Below, piece by piece: positions 41,558 to 50,193 of a stretch of 64,000 nt of DNA. Source of the DNA: Acidobacteriaceae bacterium (lineage in GTDB: Bacteria > Acidobacteriota > Terriglobia > Terriglobales > Acidobacteriaceae). The translations under genes and the position numbers were made by a program. Location: assembly GCA_025462735.1 (NCBI GenBank), contig JAOAPC010000016.1:124001-188000 (forward strand), read 5' to 3'. Under the pieces are notes generated by a model, which ran no database searches, was not told the origin of the DNA, and saw nothing but the letters and a program-made list of their open reading frames with translations. Every line of letters begins with the position of its first letter. Position 1 is the stretch's first letter.

Positions 41558-41590
41558 AGCTTTCAGCCGTCAGCTATCAGCCATCAGCTA
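41558..41590. repeat. Short intergenic repeat (GCTGATGGCTGA type)
   Basis: CTTTCAGCCGTCAGCTATCAGCCATCAGC within the spacer after a tail gene; one of two facing copies here. Confidence 0.6.
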
Positions 41591-41665
41591 ACGGCACAAA
41601 CCTTTACGCGGTAATCGGACGCAACAAGATTTCTACAGAATCAAAAACAGACGTAATTTCGTAGA

Positions 41666-41692
41666 AAGCTGAGAGCTGATAGCTGACGGCTG
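41666..41692. repeat. Short intergenic repeat (GCTGATGGCTGA type)
   Basis: AAGCTGAGAGCTGATAGCTG then ACGGCTG, the complementary orientation of the copy 80 bases to the left; together they could pair. Confidence 0.6.
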
Positions 41693-42100: not shown

Positions 42101-42727
42101 TCATCTCGTTTTCTGCGCCACAAAGGGCGCGAGCATTGAACGCACGGTAGCATCGAGCAAATCCGGCGCGAAGTAATCCATGCGGAAACGGTCCATGCGG
42201 CCAGTCTTCACATTCACGGCCGGAGTCGCCTGGGCATTGCGGACCACCTGCGCGCAGGCGTATTTAACCGCGTCAGGAATCGTGGCGTATCCCGCCGTGT
42301 AGATCATGTCCACCTCGCTGAACCACAGGCCGACGAGGTTCAACGGCAGCGTGAGTTCGCCGGTAGCTGGATCGAAGTCGACCGACGCCGGGTCGATGTT
42401 GCTCCAGGTTCCTGGCATTCCAAACATGAGCGCCACATCGAGTCGTAGGTCATCGAACGGCCATTTTCCCCGGCGTGGAACCGTATATCGCCCACGGCCG
42501 GAGATAATAGGCGAAGTGGAGGGCCCTAACGGGACAAGTGGAAGATATGTGAGGTGAATAGTATTGCGATCGGGCATCATGCGGATGCGTTCTTCATATT
42601 GCGCAATCGCCAGCGTCGCGCGCCGGCAATGGGCGTCAATAAGCGACGACGCAGCCCCCACCAGCGACGGCTCAGTCGTCGTGTCCAGTCCGTAGAGTTG
42701 GTATTCGGTTGGAGAGAGATAGTTCAC
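42101..42727 (-). CDS. Phage head-tail connector (gp6-like)
   Basis: 208 residues. N-terminal LSPTEYQLYGLDTTTEPSLV, helical AASSLIDAHCRRATLAIAQY and the C-terminal IPDAVKYACAQVVRNAQATP are like the phage connector 1 family. It joins capsid portal vertex to tail. It follows the major capsid gene after a spacer that carries a repeat element. Confidence 0.6.
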   Translation of the reverse strand: MNYLSPTEYQLYGLDTTTEPSLVGAASSLIDAHCRRATLAIAQYEERIRMMPDRNTIHLTYLPLVPLGPSTSPIISGRGRYTVPRRGKWPFDDLRLDVALMFGMPGTWSNIDPASVDFDPATGELTLPLNLVGLWFSEVDMIYTAGYATIPDAVKYACAQVVRNAQATPAVNVKTGRMDRFRMDYFAPDLLDATVRSMLAPFVAQKTR

Positions 42728-42778: not shown

Positions 42779-42813
42779 TCAGCCGTCAGCTGTCGGTCAT
42801 CAGCTTGTAAGCT
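42779..42813. repeat. Short intergenic repeat (GCTGATGGCTGA type)
   Basis: TCAGCCGTCAGCTGTCGGTC and CATCAGCTTGTAAGCTG before a connector gene. Confidence 0.6.
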
Positions 42814-42840: not shown

Positions 42841-42931
42841 ATGTCATTCCGAATCGCTTTTAGCGATGAAGAACCTGCTTTGCGAAGGCGATAAGCAGAT
42901 CCTTCAGGAATAAATTCCTTCGGAATGACAT
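42841..42931. repeat. Three-hairpin palindromic repeat, copy A
   Basis: Outer arms ATGTCATTCCGAA and TTCGGAATGACAT are exact complements. Inside: side hairpin TCGCTTTTAGCGA (42854-42866), central stem GAAGAACCTGCTT with AAGCAGATCCTTC (two mismatches), then side hairpin AGGAATAAATTCCT. This is the same layout as copy B, with different side-stem bases. Confidence 0.8.
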
Positions 42932-42981
42932 CCCGCGTGAACGGGTGCGGCCAATGGTCGAACCGAAAGCGACGGTAGTCC

Positions 42982-43953
42982 TTACCGATCGACCTTCACT
43001 TCGTAATGCGCGTAGGAAGCACCCTTCACCACCACGCCCCCGAACTTCACCACCACGTTTTGCGCAGCCAGAGTACTTGGCAAGCCGAGCTGGAAAACGC
43101 GAGGATTCGGATCGGTGAGCCAGTGGTACTCGATCATGTCCTCACTAACGATGTAAGCCGGCAGCACCGCAGTGCCGCTGCCGGGAGTTCCGGTGTAACC
43201 GAGCGCCCACTCGGGGATCAGTGGCAAGTCGCCGGCCTGAGTGCTGAGCGCCTTCACGCGGAAGCCGCCGGTGATTTCAACCGTGTTGAGAACGACGTTG
43301 AATGCCGTCTTCATTTCGCGGTCGATCAGATCGAGCAGCACCGGATTCGCATAGATGGCAGTTGGCCTCACTGCGTAGCTGGAGTTCGAGACCATCTGCG
43401 CCACCGTGGACTTCAGCCCGTCGACGATGCTCGCCGAGGTCCCAATGGTTGTGGTATTGCCACCAGCTTCGATCTGGCCTATCGCGCCGAAATATTGCAG
43501 CGTGGTCGGCGTAGATAGCGAAGTATCGGTACCATTCCAGAGCGAGACGTCATGCGTGCGCATGATGCCGTCGATGGCATCCGCGAGATCTTTTGCCTGC
43601 AGATACGCGAACTGGCTCTGCTGACTGCCGACCTCGAGGTCGAAAAGGTTGTAGTTGATCTGTGAGACCAGCGCCTTCAATGGCACGCTGCGCTCCGCCC
43701 GGTTTGGGGCCTGCACTGTCGGGGCGATGTTGCGCGGATCGACAAATGCCTGTGCTGCAGTTGGCTGAGGAATTGCCAGTTCCTCGAAGAACCGCGATGG
43801 GTGCCCGGTTGCAGGCACCTGCTTAATACGCTGTCCGAAAGCGCCGCGCCGACGTACGATGTCGGTAATTTCTGTGAGATAGCGGTTAACTTCAATCGCA
43901 CCCGGCCCAAGGAAATCGGCAGCTGCGTGCAGGTCAATAAATTGTGCGTTCAT
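42982..43953 (-). CDS. Phage major capsid protein
   Basis: 323 residues from ATG 43953 with AGGAGAAAAC upstream. N-terminal helix LHAAADFLGPGAIEVNRYL, a loop, then AERSVPLKALVSQINYNLFD and the DAIDGIMRTHDVSLWNG region, with a C-terminus ending in beta strands, fit a HK97-type capsid fold. It is preceded by a scaffold-like gene. The strong ribosome site fits high expression. Confidence 0.8.
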   Translation of the reverse strand: MNAQFIDLHAAADFLGPGAIEVNRYLTEITDIVRRRGAFGQRIKQVPATGHPSRFFEELAIPQPTAAQAFVDPRNIAPTVQAPNRAERSVPLKALVSQINYNLFDLEVGSQQSQFAYLQAKDLADAIDGIMRTHDVSLWNGTDTSLSTPTTLQYFGAIGQIEAGGNTTTIGTSASIVDGLKSTVAQMVSNSSYAVRPTAIYANPVLLDLIDREMKTAFNVVLNTVEITGGFRVKALSTQAGDLPLIPEWALGYTGTPGSGTAVLPAYIVSEDMIEYHWLTDPNPRVFQLGLPSTLAAQNVVVKFGGVVVKGASYAHYEVKVDR

Positions 43954-44043
43954 GTTTTCTCCTGAAGAAAGAATGTGTGCTTCGATCAGATTTTCTGTGC
44001 CAGAACAACGTCAGCCGCAAGCCACCAGCAAACCATTTGACAT

Positions 44044-44134
44044 CTGTCATTCCGAGGACCTTCAGGTCCGAGGAACCTGCTTTGTTGTTTGAGAGCAGCA
44101 GATTCCTCACCGCTAAAGCGGTTCGGAATGACAG
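44044..44134. repeat. Three-hairpin palindromic repeat, copy B
   Basis: Outer arms CTGTCATTCCGA and TCGGAATGACAG. Side hairpin GGACCTTCAGGTCC (44056-44069), central stem GAGGAACCTGCT with AGCAGATTCCTC (one mismatch), side hairpin ACCGCTAAAGCGGT (44109-44122). Side stems differ from copy A yet stay paired. Confidence 0.8.
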
Positions 44135-44652: not shown

Positions 44653-44680
44653 TGTCATTCCGAGGACCTTCGGAATGACA
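44653..44680. repeat. Short hairpin form of the three-hairpin repeat, copy C
   Basis: TGTCATTCCGAGG plus ACC plus TTCGGAATGACA: only the outer stem of copies A and B is kept, so it looks like a minimal or collapsed copy. Confidence 0.7.
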
Positions 44681-44695
44681 GATGAAATGGGGTGT

Positions 44696-44728
44696 GCTGA
44701 TGGCTGATGGCTGACGGCTGAAAGCTGA
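44696..44728. repeat. Short intergenic repeat (GCTGATGGCTGA type)
   Basis: GCTGATGGCTGATGGCTGAC and GGCTGAAAGCTGA, the most regular copy, one base before a gene end. Confidence 0.65.
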
Positions 44729-45466: not shown

Positions 45467-45524
45467 GTCCTTCGACTCCGGGACTGGTCTGCATCGCAGA
45501 CCAGTCCCTTCGCTCAGGATGACA
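45467..45524. repeat. TGTCATCCTGAG-type palindromic repeat, copy 2 (inverted)
   Basis: GTCCTTCGAC, then GGACTGGTCTGC-ATC-GCAGACCAGTCC, then CTTCGCTCAGGATGACA. The core pairs perfectly but shares no sequence with copy 1. Confidence 0.7.
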
Positions 45525-45535
45525 GGGATGTTTGG

Positions 45536-45567
45536 GGCTGATGGCTGATGGCTGAAGGGTGAGAGCT
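45536..45567. repeat. Short intergenic repeat (GCTGATGGCTGA type)
   Basis: GGCTGATGGCTGATGGCTGA then AGGGTGAGAGCT, just after the portal stop. Confidence 0.6.
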
Positions 45568-45570
45568 TAT

Positions 45571-46821
45571 CTACAACGGCACCAGCCCGCGCATTCGCCG
45601 GACTTCGTTCACCGTAAGCACGCCGGATTGCAGCAGGATTTGCTGTATCTGCGCCTCTTCCATGGCGTCTCCGGGACCGTCCACATCGGTGAAGACAAAC
45701 TCAAGATCGTCCCAGCCGAGCTTTTTGCAGATTGCGTCGCGCGTGAGATATTCGGCAAACAACCGCGCGGTCGGCACGATTGCCTGGCGAAAAGCCTGGT
45801 CATTCATCTCTGCTGCGGTCGAGCGGTTCACATCGCGCTCGAGACCAAGCGATTGCGGCGGCAAATCAAAGGCATCGGCAATAATGCGCATCAAGAATTC
45901 CTGCCACTGCAATCGCAGGTCGGCGTCTGTGCCTCCGCCGAAACGTAGCACTTCAGGTTTGTTTTCGACTGATAGTATCGGGACCCGACCTGTTCCCTCG
46001 ATCTCATCCTGCCACCACCGAATGAGCCGCTCGTGCTGCTCGGGCGTCGTGTTCTGCAACCACAGTGCATATTCGACCACCGAGTTTGACGCCAGCCTTC
46101 CGGCATAACGGTGCGCGCCAAGAAATGAGTTGATCGACTCGAACGCAACTTCCAAACGCCCGAGTCCAAAAGGCGTAAACGTGCGCGGGTTGAGGCGCAT
46201 GTAGATCAGCTCGTCGTCGCTTAAAAGAATGTTGGCATTCGGGCCAGCTTTCGACGTGACCTGTTCGTAGCGGATCGAACTCGGCAATCCGTCCCAGTCC
46301 GCGCGCATGTTAATCGTGGATCCGTCGACCGGCCACAAAGCCAGTGGAGCATTGGCATCATCTGTGGCTTCGACTTCGATTGCACCAAAGCCGCCGACAA
46401 TGACGTCTTCGAGCACCTGCTCTGCTAGGGAGCGAAACGAATCATCAGGATTGGGCGAAGCTAAGTTGCGCGTAAGAATGAGAACACGCGTTTCAGCATC
46501 CGGTGATTGAGGCGTGCCAGGCTTTGACTGGACCCGCCAACGCATTCCGGCGATGTGGTCTTTTATTGTGTTGATCGCCCGCCGCGCCACTGGTATTTCC
46601 GAAAAGCGCCGCAGGTTCATCGGCGTGGGCCTGGGCATGGTCTGCGCCCGCGGCCCGTAAGTGTTGAGTATCGATGGGAGCGGCACCGTTCGGCGCTTGC
46701 CTTGCAGCATCCCGGTGGAGGCGCCTCCGGCGAAAATGCTTCCGTTCTGCGTCAGTCGGTTGACGAAAGACACTCCCGCAATCCGGCGCATTGCGCCGCG
46801 TAGCGTATTTGTGATGTTCAT
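45571..46821 (-). CDS. Phage portal protein
   Basis: 416 residues. Portal pattern: MNLRRFSEIPVARRAINTIK near the N-terminus, GFGAIEVEATDDANAPLALW, LIYMRLNPRT, and a long C-terminal region with VEYALWLQNTTPEQHERLIR and SLGLERDVNRSTAAEMNDQA. It forms the DNA entry ring in the capsid. A clear virion gene with gene order TerL, cargo, portal. Confidence 0.88.
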   Translation of the reverse strand: MNITNTLRGAMRRIAGVSFVNRLTQNGSIFAGGASTGMLQGKRRTVPLPSILNTYGPRAQTMPRPTPMNLRRFSEIPVARRAINTIKDHIAGMRWRVQSKPGTPQSPDAETRVLILTRNLASPNPDDSFRSLAEQVLEDVIVGGFGAIEVEATDDANAPLALWPVDGSTINMRADWDGLPSSIRYEQVTSKAGPNANILLSDDELIYMRLNPRTFTPFGLGRLEVAFESINSFLGAHRYAGRLASNSVVEYALWLQNTTPEQHERLIRWWQDEIEGTGRVPILSVENKPEVLRFGGGTDADLRLQWQEFLMRIIADAFDLPPQSLGLERDVNRSTAAEMNDQAFRQAIVPTARLFAEYLTRDAICKKLGWDDLEFVFTDVDGPGDAMEEAQIQQILLQSGVLTVNEVRRMRGLVPL

Positions 46822-48516: not shown

Positions 48517-48533
48517 TGTTCGCTGTCAATCTC

Positions 48534-48593
48534 GTCCTTCGACTGCATGCGCGGACTCGCAAGCGAGTCCACGTACTTCGCTCAGGATGACAG
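48534..48593. repeat. TGTCATCCTGAG-type palindromic repeat, copy 3
   Basis: GTCCTTCGAC, core GGACTCGC-AA-GCGAGTCC, then CTTCGCTCAGGATGACAG. It is just upstream of the HipA-like gene's start. Confidence 0.65.
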
Positions 48594-48681
48594 GCAAGAG
48601 ATGCTAGCTCACAGCGCGGCATGAGCGATGTGACGAATGAACATTCGCAGCTGTGGATTTCTACTCCGATGCGTGACGCCG

Positions 48682-50193
48682 CTATTTGGATCCTGCCACA
48701 GCCTGCCGCCCCGCCAGCGCAATCGCCATGGCCATCACGCAGTCATCATGGCTTCCCGAACTGTTTCCGGACCCGCCATCAGCCCGGCGGATAAACGTCC
48801 TGAATTCTGCAAGCAGTCGTTCGCTCTGAAACAGCTGCGGCTTAACCGACAAAATTGCGGCCAGGTTTTCGATCATGGCTGGCTTTGTTACCGCCGACGT
48901 CAGCCAGCCGTCCTGGCCACCATGGCGAAATACGTTCTGATATCCCGCCGCCCTCAGGTTCGCCAGCACGCCGTGTCCGTGATTATTTCGTTCAACCACG
49001 AGCAGCGCATGGTTATACATTCCGCCCAAGTCAATCAACTTCATCGCCAGCTCGCGCGGAGAATAATGTCCGTGCAACTCCGCGCACTGCATCGCTGTTT
49101 GCCGGTCGATGACCTCCGCGCACGCGTAATCGCCTTCGGTGCCGCCTCCTGCAGGATCGACTCCGATAATGTATTGCCGCTCGCCTCGAGGCTGAAACCA
49201 GATGGTCAGCCGCGCATTGTCGCGCACAGTGGTTGGCCGAGACTGCGCGTCCAGTGCCCGATCGATTGCCTCCAACTCAAACACACATTCGCCCGAAGCG
49301 AGGAAACAGGAAACCGGGTCTTCGGCATACTCCTGCGTAGCCAAGCCTCGCATTTGCGCACGATTTGTCCGACGCCAGGCGATCTGCGCATCCGTCAGCC
49401 CAGCCCTTCGGACCAGGTCTTCTTCTTCCGGAGTTAATCGCAGAACATTGCTCAATCCTTTTTTGTCACGATATTCATCGTCATACCACCACGGGAAAAA
49501 GTGCCTTGTGTATCCCGTTTCATTCGCGTGCTGCCACTCTTCATAGAAGAGTCCGACCGCCCCGTTCGGGGTGGATTCCAAAACGATGTCTCCATCGGCC
49601 GGTACGGCTGCGCGCAACGAAGCCAGCGCTTCCGCCGGATCACGCAGCCAGCGGGCGACCTCCGAGCAATGCAAATTGTGGATAGTCAGCCCGCGGCCGG
49701 CATTGACGTCCCCAGCAGTGGCTACTCGGTACTCGCTGTCGAGCCGCGGAAACACCATCTGGCGGACGTTGGCGCGTGAGCGGATGAGCGCGCCGCGTTT
49801 CATCGCTTCGGGCAGGTTCTCCCAGAAGCGATGGACGATCTTGAAAATTTCCTCTGCCGATTCCTGATCGTGGGCTACCAGCACCGTCATCGTGCCCGGC
49901 CGCGTAATGGTCTGGATAAAGAATCGCGCCGCGATATAGGTCGTGATTCCCATCTGCCGCGCCTTCAGCACGATATTGCGATGAGTGCAGGTCTGCGAAA
50001 ATTCCCGCTGTACGCGATTCGGGCTCAGCCGCACCAGCCCGCGCTTTTTACTGCGCACTCGCAGGAAAATCGACATCAGAGAGTCGCGCACGCTTTCGCA
50101 TCCCGCGAAACCTGCAGCTCTCAGCCGCTCCACCGGGATCTTCGCTTCCAGCAAAATCCCCAACCGCTGCAACAGAGCAACGTCGTCGGTCAA
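48682..50193 (-). CDS. Phage terminase large subunit
   Basis: 503 residues from TTG 50193. ATPase part: Q-rich Walker-A variant NIVLKARQMGITTYIAA, Walker B region HNLHCSEVARW and coupling motif LESTPNG. RNase H-like nuclease part: IIGVDPAGGGTEGDYACAEV with the metal Asp. It packs DNA into heads, the defining phage gene of the element. Confidence 0.92.
   Translation of the reverse strand: MTDDVALLQRLGILLEAKIPVERLRAAGFAGCESVRDSLMSIFLRVRSKKRGLVRLSPNRVQREFSQTCTHRNIVLKARQMGITTYIAARFFIQTITRPGTMTVLVAHDQESAEEIFKIVHRFWENLPEAMKRGALIRSRANVRQMVFPRLDSEYRVATAGDVNAGRGLTIHNLHCSEVARWLRDPAEALASLRAAVPADGDIVLESTPNGAVGLFYEEWQHANETGYTRHFFPWWYDDEYRDKKGLSNVLRLTPEEEDLVRRAGLTDAQIAWRRTNRAQMRGLATQEYAEDPVSCFLASGECVFELEAIDRALDAQSRPTTVRDNARLTIWFQPRGERQYIIGVDPAGGGTEGDYACAEVIDRQTAMQCAELHGHYSPRELAMKLIDLGGMYNHALLVVERNNHGHGVLANLRAAGYQNVFRHGGQDGWLTSAVTKPAMIENLAAILSVKPQLFQSERLLAEFRTFIRRADGGSGNSSGSHDDCVMAMAIALAGRQAVAGSK

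Follow-up and report, generated by a model that had tools for sequence, protein, structure and literature searches.

A family of 36-nt REP-like palindromic units in Acidobacteria with variable, paired stems

The window analyzed here, a stretch of 64,000 nucleotides from an Acidobacteriaceae bacterium, holds two copies of a three-hairpin palindrome, A (42842-42930) and B (44045-44133), and a shorter relative, C (44653-44680). The side hairpins of A and B differ in sequence and are paired in both copies. What keeps such stems paired while their sequences change? An earlier note, made from the sequence alone, took the paired change as a sign of selection on structure, proposed that the copies, which flank a capsid gene, could affect transcript ends or processing, and called for a covariance-model search of the genome and a statistical test of covariation. 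The coordinates and hairpins that it gave for the three copies were all found in the sequence. We suggest that the underlying object is a small, probably mobile DNA hairpin of a lineage of Acidobacteria. The sequence of its paired stem varies at constant shape, loop, and ends, and the enzyme that copies it probably responds to shape more than to sequence.

The window copies and their unit

Copies A and B, neither of which has a strand of its own, are inverted doublets of two units. The left unit of A (42842-42878, + strand) consists of TGTCATTCCGA, the 15-nt hairpin ATCGCTTTTAGCGAT, and GAAGAACCTGC, with a covariance model score of 46.6 bits; the right unit (42895-42930, − strand; 48.3 bits) has the stem AGGAA/TTCCT and the loop TTTA. 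B combines a left unit (44045-44080, + strand; 57.7 bits) with stem GGACC/GGTCC and loop TTCA and a right unit (44098-44133, − strand; 64.8 bits) with stem ACCGC/GCGGT and loop TTTA, the commonest form in the source genome. The side stems are thus ATCGC(T) and AGGAA in A and GGACC and ACCGC in B. Either strand of both copies folds into an outer stem with left, central, and right hairpins. RNA folding z-scores were −6.6 (A) and −8.0 (B) on the + strand and −9.1 (A) and −9.8 (B) on the − strand, with 0 of 200 shuffles equally stable. Folding the + strand with single-stranded DNA parameters gave −7.1 (A) and −8.1 (B).

The outer arms and central stem that A and B had been said to share are present. 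Their agreement follows from the build of the element, in which one unit occurs twice in opposite orientation, and it is uninformative on structure. Only the side stems bear on that. The contrast between the side stems of A and B had been read as covariation; two copies are too few for that, but 85 distinct units do show it (see below).

C is a 28-nt palindromic remnant, also without a strand. It equals B minus 61 bp, the deletion being bounded by two TTC triplets, and a collapsed doublet is therefore its best reading. From A, one deletion does not suffice to produce C. The C site in a congener, G003, has a full doublet with the left stem GGACC. A second C-like remnant, GTCATTCCGAGGACCTTTCGGAATGACAG, lies in another congener, G004 (L335:530-574), which suggests that doublets have collapsed repeatedly by the same route.

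The basic unit is 36 nt long: TGTCATTCCGA and GAGGAAYCTGC enclose a 5-bp stem of variable sequence, which is capped by a TTYA loop. Its layout is a 5′ arm TGTCATTCC, a foot GA, the stem-loop, a second foot GA, and a 3′ arm GGAAYCTGC, usually followed by T-rich sequence. The foot CCGA occupies columns 8 to 11, each conserved to at least 90%. When single-stranded, the ACCGC unit forms one hairpin (−7.8 kcal/mol, DNA parameters), with an ATTCC/GGAAT pair outside a GA/GA internal loop. The loop was no search criterion in 50 source-genome units, and in these T, T, and A occupy positions 1, 2, and 4 in 48, 49, and 49 units, respectively, with T or C at position 3 in 48.

We counted 57 units in the source genome, 32 within 16 doublets and 25 solo. 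The doublets are mostly 86 to 119 bp long, with inverted units and outward tags, and several have one decayed half. They are REPIN-like and can also fold as a cloverleaf. Stems are fully paired in 22 of 25 solo units versus 20 of 32 doublet units, and the ACCGC stem occurs in 18 of 25 versus 7 of 32; arm mismatches are the same in both (0.56 per unit). Solo units are thus more uniform in stem than doublets, the opposite of REPINs. The conserved object is the 36-nt unit, not the three-hairpin figure, and the idea that the figure itself is selected is not supported, given the stem pairing in solo units.

Related hairpins occur as well. Long-hairpin (L-type) units of the source genome (e.g., L013, L016, L017, L043, L050, L055, and L058) have the same arms and 12- to 14-bp stems, which also remain paired; many have GATC(A/G)TTCGC arms. 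Short and long units form mixed doublets at two sites (L030 and L051). Hairpins of the GTCATCCTGAGCGAAG kind, with different and longer stems, lie at 45480-45527 and 48530-48600 of the window. In the congener G001 (L336, reverse strand), an array of the bare end TTTCGGAATGACATCTACTAC stands beside a solo unit.

Copy number, occupancy, and paired change of the stem

The covariance model search of the source genome (4.36 Mb, 24 contigs) returned 56 strong units at E ≤ 1e-8, and the family is genome-wide. A single model with one loop and one arm pair fits all 56. Relaxing the threshold to E ≤ 0.1 gave 78 matches, with long-hairpin relatives among the weak ones, and BLAST gave 50 matches to B. Exact TGTCATTCCGA occurs 76 times, versus 2 for a reversed-pattern control.

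With strict filters, 19 of 61 related genomes carry matches, the source included: 6 of 8 in the genus (again with the source), 11 of 29 others in the family, and 2 of 10 elsewhere in the class, with a match in none of 14 genomes of the sister family of the order. Copy number among eight genomes of the one genus ranges from 0 to 77, and over the whole search from 0 to 89 per genome. A phylum survey found matches in at least 6 of 297 genomes, all in the same family; its filters were strict enough to recover only 23 of the 56 source units, and the figure is therefore a lower bound. A genome pattern scan found at least 99 stretches, and those listed are all titled Acidobacteria, Acidobacteriaceae, Acidobacteriales, Terriglobia, or Candidatus Sulfotelmatobacter.

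We then compared orthologous sites among congeners, retrieved by flank and not by repeat. At the L022 site, doublets are present in the source genome (ACGCC + ACCGC) and G004 (ATGGC + ACCAC), one unit (ATGGC) remains in G001, and no unit is present in G002, G003, G006, or G007. A different inverted hairpin pair fills the orthologous intergenic space in G007 (L232); therefore, unlike palindromes share the spacer across species. The L024 site is filled in the source genome and G001, with no unit nearby in the other relatives retrieved. At the first L057 site, G001 and G002 each have a lone right-hand unit, and G004 has a C-like remnant some 340 nt past the flank. The second is filled in the source genome, G001, and G004 (both G004 stems broken), with no unit in G002, G006, or G007. 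Both L035 sites are filled in the source genome only, among the congeners retrieved; at one of them the G004 stretch includes a run of N. Target duplication was not demonstrated, and the intergenic flanks align too poorly to define clean empty sites.

These comparisons gave 29 matched unit pairs: 14 with the same stem, 9 with different stems that are both paired, 3 with one stem broken, and 3 of unequal length. The nine pairs with differing paired stems contain 16 both-side changes versus 2 one-side changes. The 29 include doubtful pairs: L023 versus L127 is better matched by a neighboring unit, and window B versus G003, which differ at four pairs, may reflect a flip or an independent insertion. 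Thus, copies are gained and lost, and those that are shared undergo paired changes.

The covariation test gave a similar picture. In 85 distinct units, 118 cells were changed on both sides, versus 38.7 in shuffles, and 0 of 500 shuffles were as high. The covariation score was 0.387, versus 0.114 in shuffles (0 of 500 reached it) and at most 0.078 in slid controls; 92.9% of cells were paired, versus 77.9% (0 of 500). A count of the pairs that have any change on both sides showed no excess (5 versus a shuffle mean of 4.9; 372 of 500 shuffles). The signal sits in the inner stem, and the ATTCC/GGAAT pairs are nearly invariant.

Structure and arms in that test were our own choice, and a pairing-blind scan is therefore the cleaner test. 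It fixed exact arms and the TTYA loop, left the ten stem bases free, and used 80 of the 99 listed stretches. Arms and loop in these loci are exact by construction, and therefore only their stems are unbiased. Among the matches listed, 65 of 91 stems were fully Watson-Crick paired, whereas shuffles averaged 16.3 and never exceeded 27, and 74 of 91 were paired with G-T allowed; 14 of the 36 distinct stems among them were paired, versus 2.5 in shuffles. The paired change of the side stems described in the earlier note is thus borne out by the 85 units, the pairing-blind scan, and the orthologous sites. Nor did a genome-wide search reveal side stems that generally fail to pair: 39 of 50 source-genome units with a 14-nt hairpin are fully paired, and 11 are broken. 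A chance origin of the repeat is ruled out by the fold z-scores, motif counts, pairing-blind scan, and covariation shuffles.

Across 195 units, 160 are fully paired, with 36 distinct paired stems, and 35 are not. Stem pairs 2 and 3 are the most variable and pair 5 the least; a purine opens the stem in 193 units. The dominant stem is lineage-specific, in a count by lineage that covers 169 of the 195 units and leaves out the remaining ones, mostly of unassigned genomes. ACCGC dominates in the source genome (20 of 49 units) and in several congeners. AGGGC makes up 12 of 15 units in one MAG of another genus and 0 of 154 across seven other genomes.

Pairing might be kept by mutation rather than by selection. 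In quasipalindrome template switching, one arm is copied onto the other, so that a point mutation on one side soon finds its match on the opposite side; this mechanism is established in E. coli, as reported in PMC7202029, and arm homogenization also appears in PMC8604942. The preponderance of both-side changes at matched sites is what such copying would leave, and C demonstrates replication-type deletions in unit hairpins. However, template switching gives no account of why the loop and the GA/GA feet are fixed, of the unpaired parts of the arms, or of the purine at the first stem base. Broken stems persist, and template switching alone gives neither the copy number nor the lineage-specific dominant stems. 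We consider it unlikely as the explanation of the paired stems, although it may act together with transposase copying and may account for part of the covariation.

Genomic setting and a proposed route of copying

The source-genome units occupy 39 sites, whose contexts derive from a crude ORF selection. Thirty-three lie between selected ORFs (17 convergent, 15 tandem, and 1 divergent) and 6 inside a crude ORF call. The excess of convergent over divergent sites (P = 0.00014) places the units strongly at gene 3′ ends, as would be expected of a host-selected RNA element, such as a stabilizer, processing site, or anti-readthrough hairpin, with pairing selected locus by locus. Some sites shared with congeners do keep both stems paired. 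However, insertion tolerance would also give this placement, and congeners lack a unit at many of the sites. Of 10 solo units in tandem gene pairs, 3 are oriented along transcription and 7 opposite to it. A terminator scan found 7 sites, with 3.7 expected; B contains one of the 7, on the + strand, whereas the genes are on the other strand. No Rfam family matched at gathering thresholds. We regard a host RNA element as quite improbable.

An intrinsic terminator, which has its T run directly after the stem, was also rejected: in the unit, CTGC separates the hairpin from the T run, and the solo orientation and the terminator scan speak against it as well. A structured RNA of a described family was set aside because Rfam 15 gave no match in the window at gathering score (best permissive match, E 0.063). 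Unrelated palindromic subfamilies that share arms and have decayed, their stems now unconstrained, would account for the 11 broken stems in the source genome and the doublets with one decayed half but are very improbable, given that one model fits 56 units at E ≤ 1e-8, that 160 of 195 units are fully paired with 36 distinct paired stems, and that the pairing-blind scan and the covariation test disfavor them.

The window region is identified as a prophage by a portal gene (45571-46821, − strand; PF04860, E 1.9e-46), a terminase large subunit gene (48682-50193, − strand; phrog_2, E 2.2e-30), and a head-tail adaptor gene (42101-42727, − strand; phrog_442, E 1.8e-9). A and B do flank a gene (42982-43953, − strand), as had been claimed; the label "capsid" comes from position only, and by its place beside the portal, adaptor, and terminase genes the product is a probable major capsid protein. 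It had no Pfam or PHROGs match at E ≤ 0.001 and no PDB match at E ≤ 1, and its structure model was unusable (pLDDT 31.7). Its 17 relatives gave weak PHROGs matches (best E 0.074), one of them to a "major head protein." The prophage, in the G003 copy as well, has intergenic spaces filled with heptad-like repeats, AGCTGATNGCTGACGGCTG or its complement (window 37383, 41558-41605, 41666-41692, 42779-42806, 44696-44728, and 45537-45567).

Sequence related to the prophage was found in 12 of 41 genomes searched, the source included, and within the genus only in the source and G003. G003 has a doublet at the B site (ATCGC + GGACC, the GGACC unit having decayed arms), a doublet minus the right side-hairpin at a fourth site, and no doublet at the A site. 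The exact pattern had no match in IMG/VR, and 20 related viral loci, searched with up to 4 mismatches, contained no unit except for one chance long-spacer match (L268). A phage-borne element was set aside on these two results; the units are a host-lineage repeat that is also present in the prophage. A role tied to the capsid gene or to transcript ends is not supported, for the same reasons together with the genome-wide spread of the family and the orientation of the tandem solos.

The flanks of the units are asymmetric. In 92 doublet units, the last 10 nt leading into the unit contain 13% G, versus 27 to 32% farther out, and on the two outer sides of doublets the adjacent 20 nt, read inward, are poor in G. 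Over the upstream 15 nt, C outnumbers G in 153 of 214 units, and the reverse holds in 34. The asymmetry follows the unit, not the gene, which probably reflects a target or flank requirement. CT stands just upstream in 38 of 214 units (background, 9%); a CT cleavage site like that of E. coli TnpA-REP was rejected on this weak signal.

We searched for a transposase beside the units. None of the 12 Y1_Tnp genes of the source genome has a strong unit within 1.5 kb, and 30 Y1_Tnp loci (of 39 hits) in seven related genomes contain no unit. The at least 99 unit-bearing loci listed include one Y1_Tnp gene, about as density predicts. A RAYT gene adjoining strong units was thus not found in the source genome or the sampled relatives, and mobilization is for that reason something that we infer. 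Bare or L-type arms do occur near two Y1_Tnp genes on contig C18 and one on C12, and 3 of the 30 loci have L-type-like matches that deviate at 2 to 4 positions; we did not count any of these as the element studied here. The class 3 Y----Q motif is absent by eye from the inspected Y1_Tnp proteins, a gene set defined by PF01797 matches.

Beside RAYT genes of the source genome stand other hairpins, which have TTYA loops and stem variants that keep pairing; at one such gene the stem changes pairwise (GGCACGTC, GGCACGCC, and GGCACGGC). TTYA hairpins are weakly enriched at Y1_Tnp loci (0.29 versus 0.18 per kb). Several Y1_Tnp genes (L047, L062, L063, and L065-L067) have a flanking hairpin family of their own, with TTYA loops at L063/L066 and L065.

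On the strength of the Marinomonas REP rules (see below), the CnGA foot, and the TTYA hairpins beside RAYT genes, we think it reasonably likely that A, B, and C are REP-like nonautonomous mobile palindromes, recognized as folded single-stranded DNA by a Y1 transposase acting in trans. In this scenario, a Y1 (HUH) transposase of the TnpA-REP superfamily would bind the unit in single-stranded form, contacting the ends, the paired stem, and the loop bases T, T, and A, and would then cleave it and rejoin it elsewhere. Selection would act at the copying step: the enzyme would require a paired stem and hardly read its sequence, so that the stems of copied units would drift only by paired changes. 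Lineages would end up amplifying units with different stems, and old doublets would lose one half or collapse as C did.

Tentatively, the units may form a REP class without GTAG, confined to Acidobacteria so far, whose transposase, perhaps a class 3 HUH protein or else an unrecognized one working in trans, reads shape, loop, and feet and leaves the stem as a free barcode. If so, each lineage amplifies its own paired stem, and the stem sequence records which source copies spread. The family also makes it testable whether a shape-reading transposase, the host, or template-switch mutation maintains covariation in bacterial intergenic palindromes, and it warns that covariation in gene-end repeats need not imply a functional RNA.

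Comparison with known systems

A literature search returned no description of a 36-nt unit family in the texts that it reached; the family may be listed in supplementary tables, which lay outside that reach. A search by sequence strings gave no title on bacterial repeats among the matches listed. Features that PMC12306157 gives for REPs are seen in the units, which are extragenic, short palindromic stem-loops in many similar copies. The family is REP/REPIN-like, lacks GTAG, and has a free but paired stem.

The GTAG REP superfamily is described in PMC3733652 as having a terminal GTAG tag, which is absent from our units, whose arms are TGTCATTCCGA and GAGGAAYCTGC. The same source reports that REPs are placed convergently more often than divergently, as the units are (17 versus 1), and that HH REP dimers include heterodimers with different stems. 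Like E. coli BIMEs as described in PMC8266576, the doublets join a unit and an inverted unit through a variable linker and have a stem-internal mismatch, here GA/GA; unlike BIMEs, they lack GTAG, a fixed stem sequence, and an adjoining gene.

Pseudomonas fluorescens REPINs (PMC3116915) likewise consist of two inverted units and a spacer, fold as one hairpin, are extragenic, and have solo counterparts. However, REPINs keep the REP itself constant and have their compensatory changes in the spacer, whereas here the unit's own stem varies. REPIN doublets are better conserved than singlets, which our doublets are not, and REPINs have an associated RAYT gene, of which none was found beside the units.

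Class 3 TnpA-Y1 structures, as reported in PMC6006769, have a 5′ foot CnGA and occur in Planctomycetes, Acidobacteria, and Proteobacteria, with about 600 copies in Solibacter usitatus. Our units resemble them in the CCGA foot directly 5′ of the stem, in their occurrence in Acidobacteria, and in high copy number. In contrast to them, no class 3 gene was identified here, and the two families are compared by description only.

The group 3 REP of Marinomonas sp. MWYL1, in the account of PMC8266576, has a 5-bp perfect stem and a TTTA loop in which T12, T13, and A15 are essential and base 14 is free; in vitro, stem positions 2 and 3 could be exchanged, and a mismatch was harmful. Our units share the 5-bp perfect stem, the T-T-N-A loop, and a spacing of two bases (GA in our units) from foot motif to stem. 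They differ in phylum and lack both the GTAG tag and an adjoining transposase. Pairs 2 and 3 are the most variable in the units and the exchangeable ones in the Marinomonas REP, although that account leaves the counting end unstated. In the Marinomonas REP, pairing was needed and stem sequence was minor in vitro, and the Acidobacteria units show the same pattern of variation. The family is thus a natural counterpart to the in vitro result, with dozens of paired stems, one loop, and one foot pair in many genomes.
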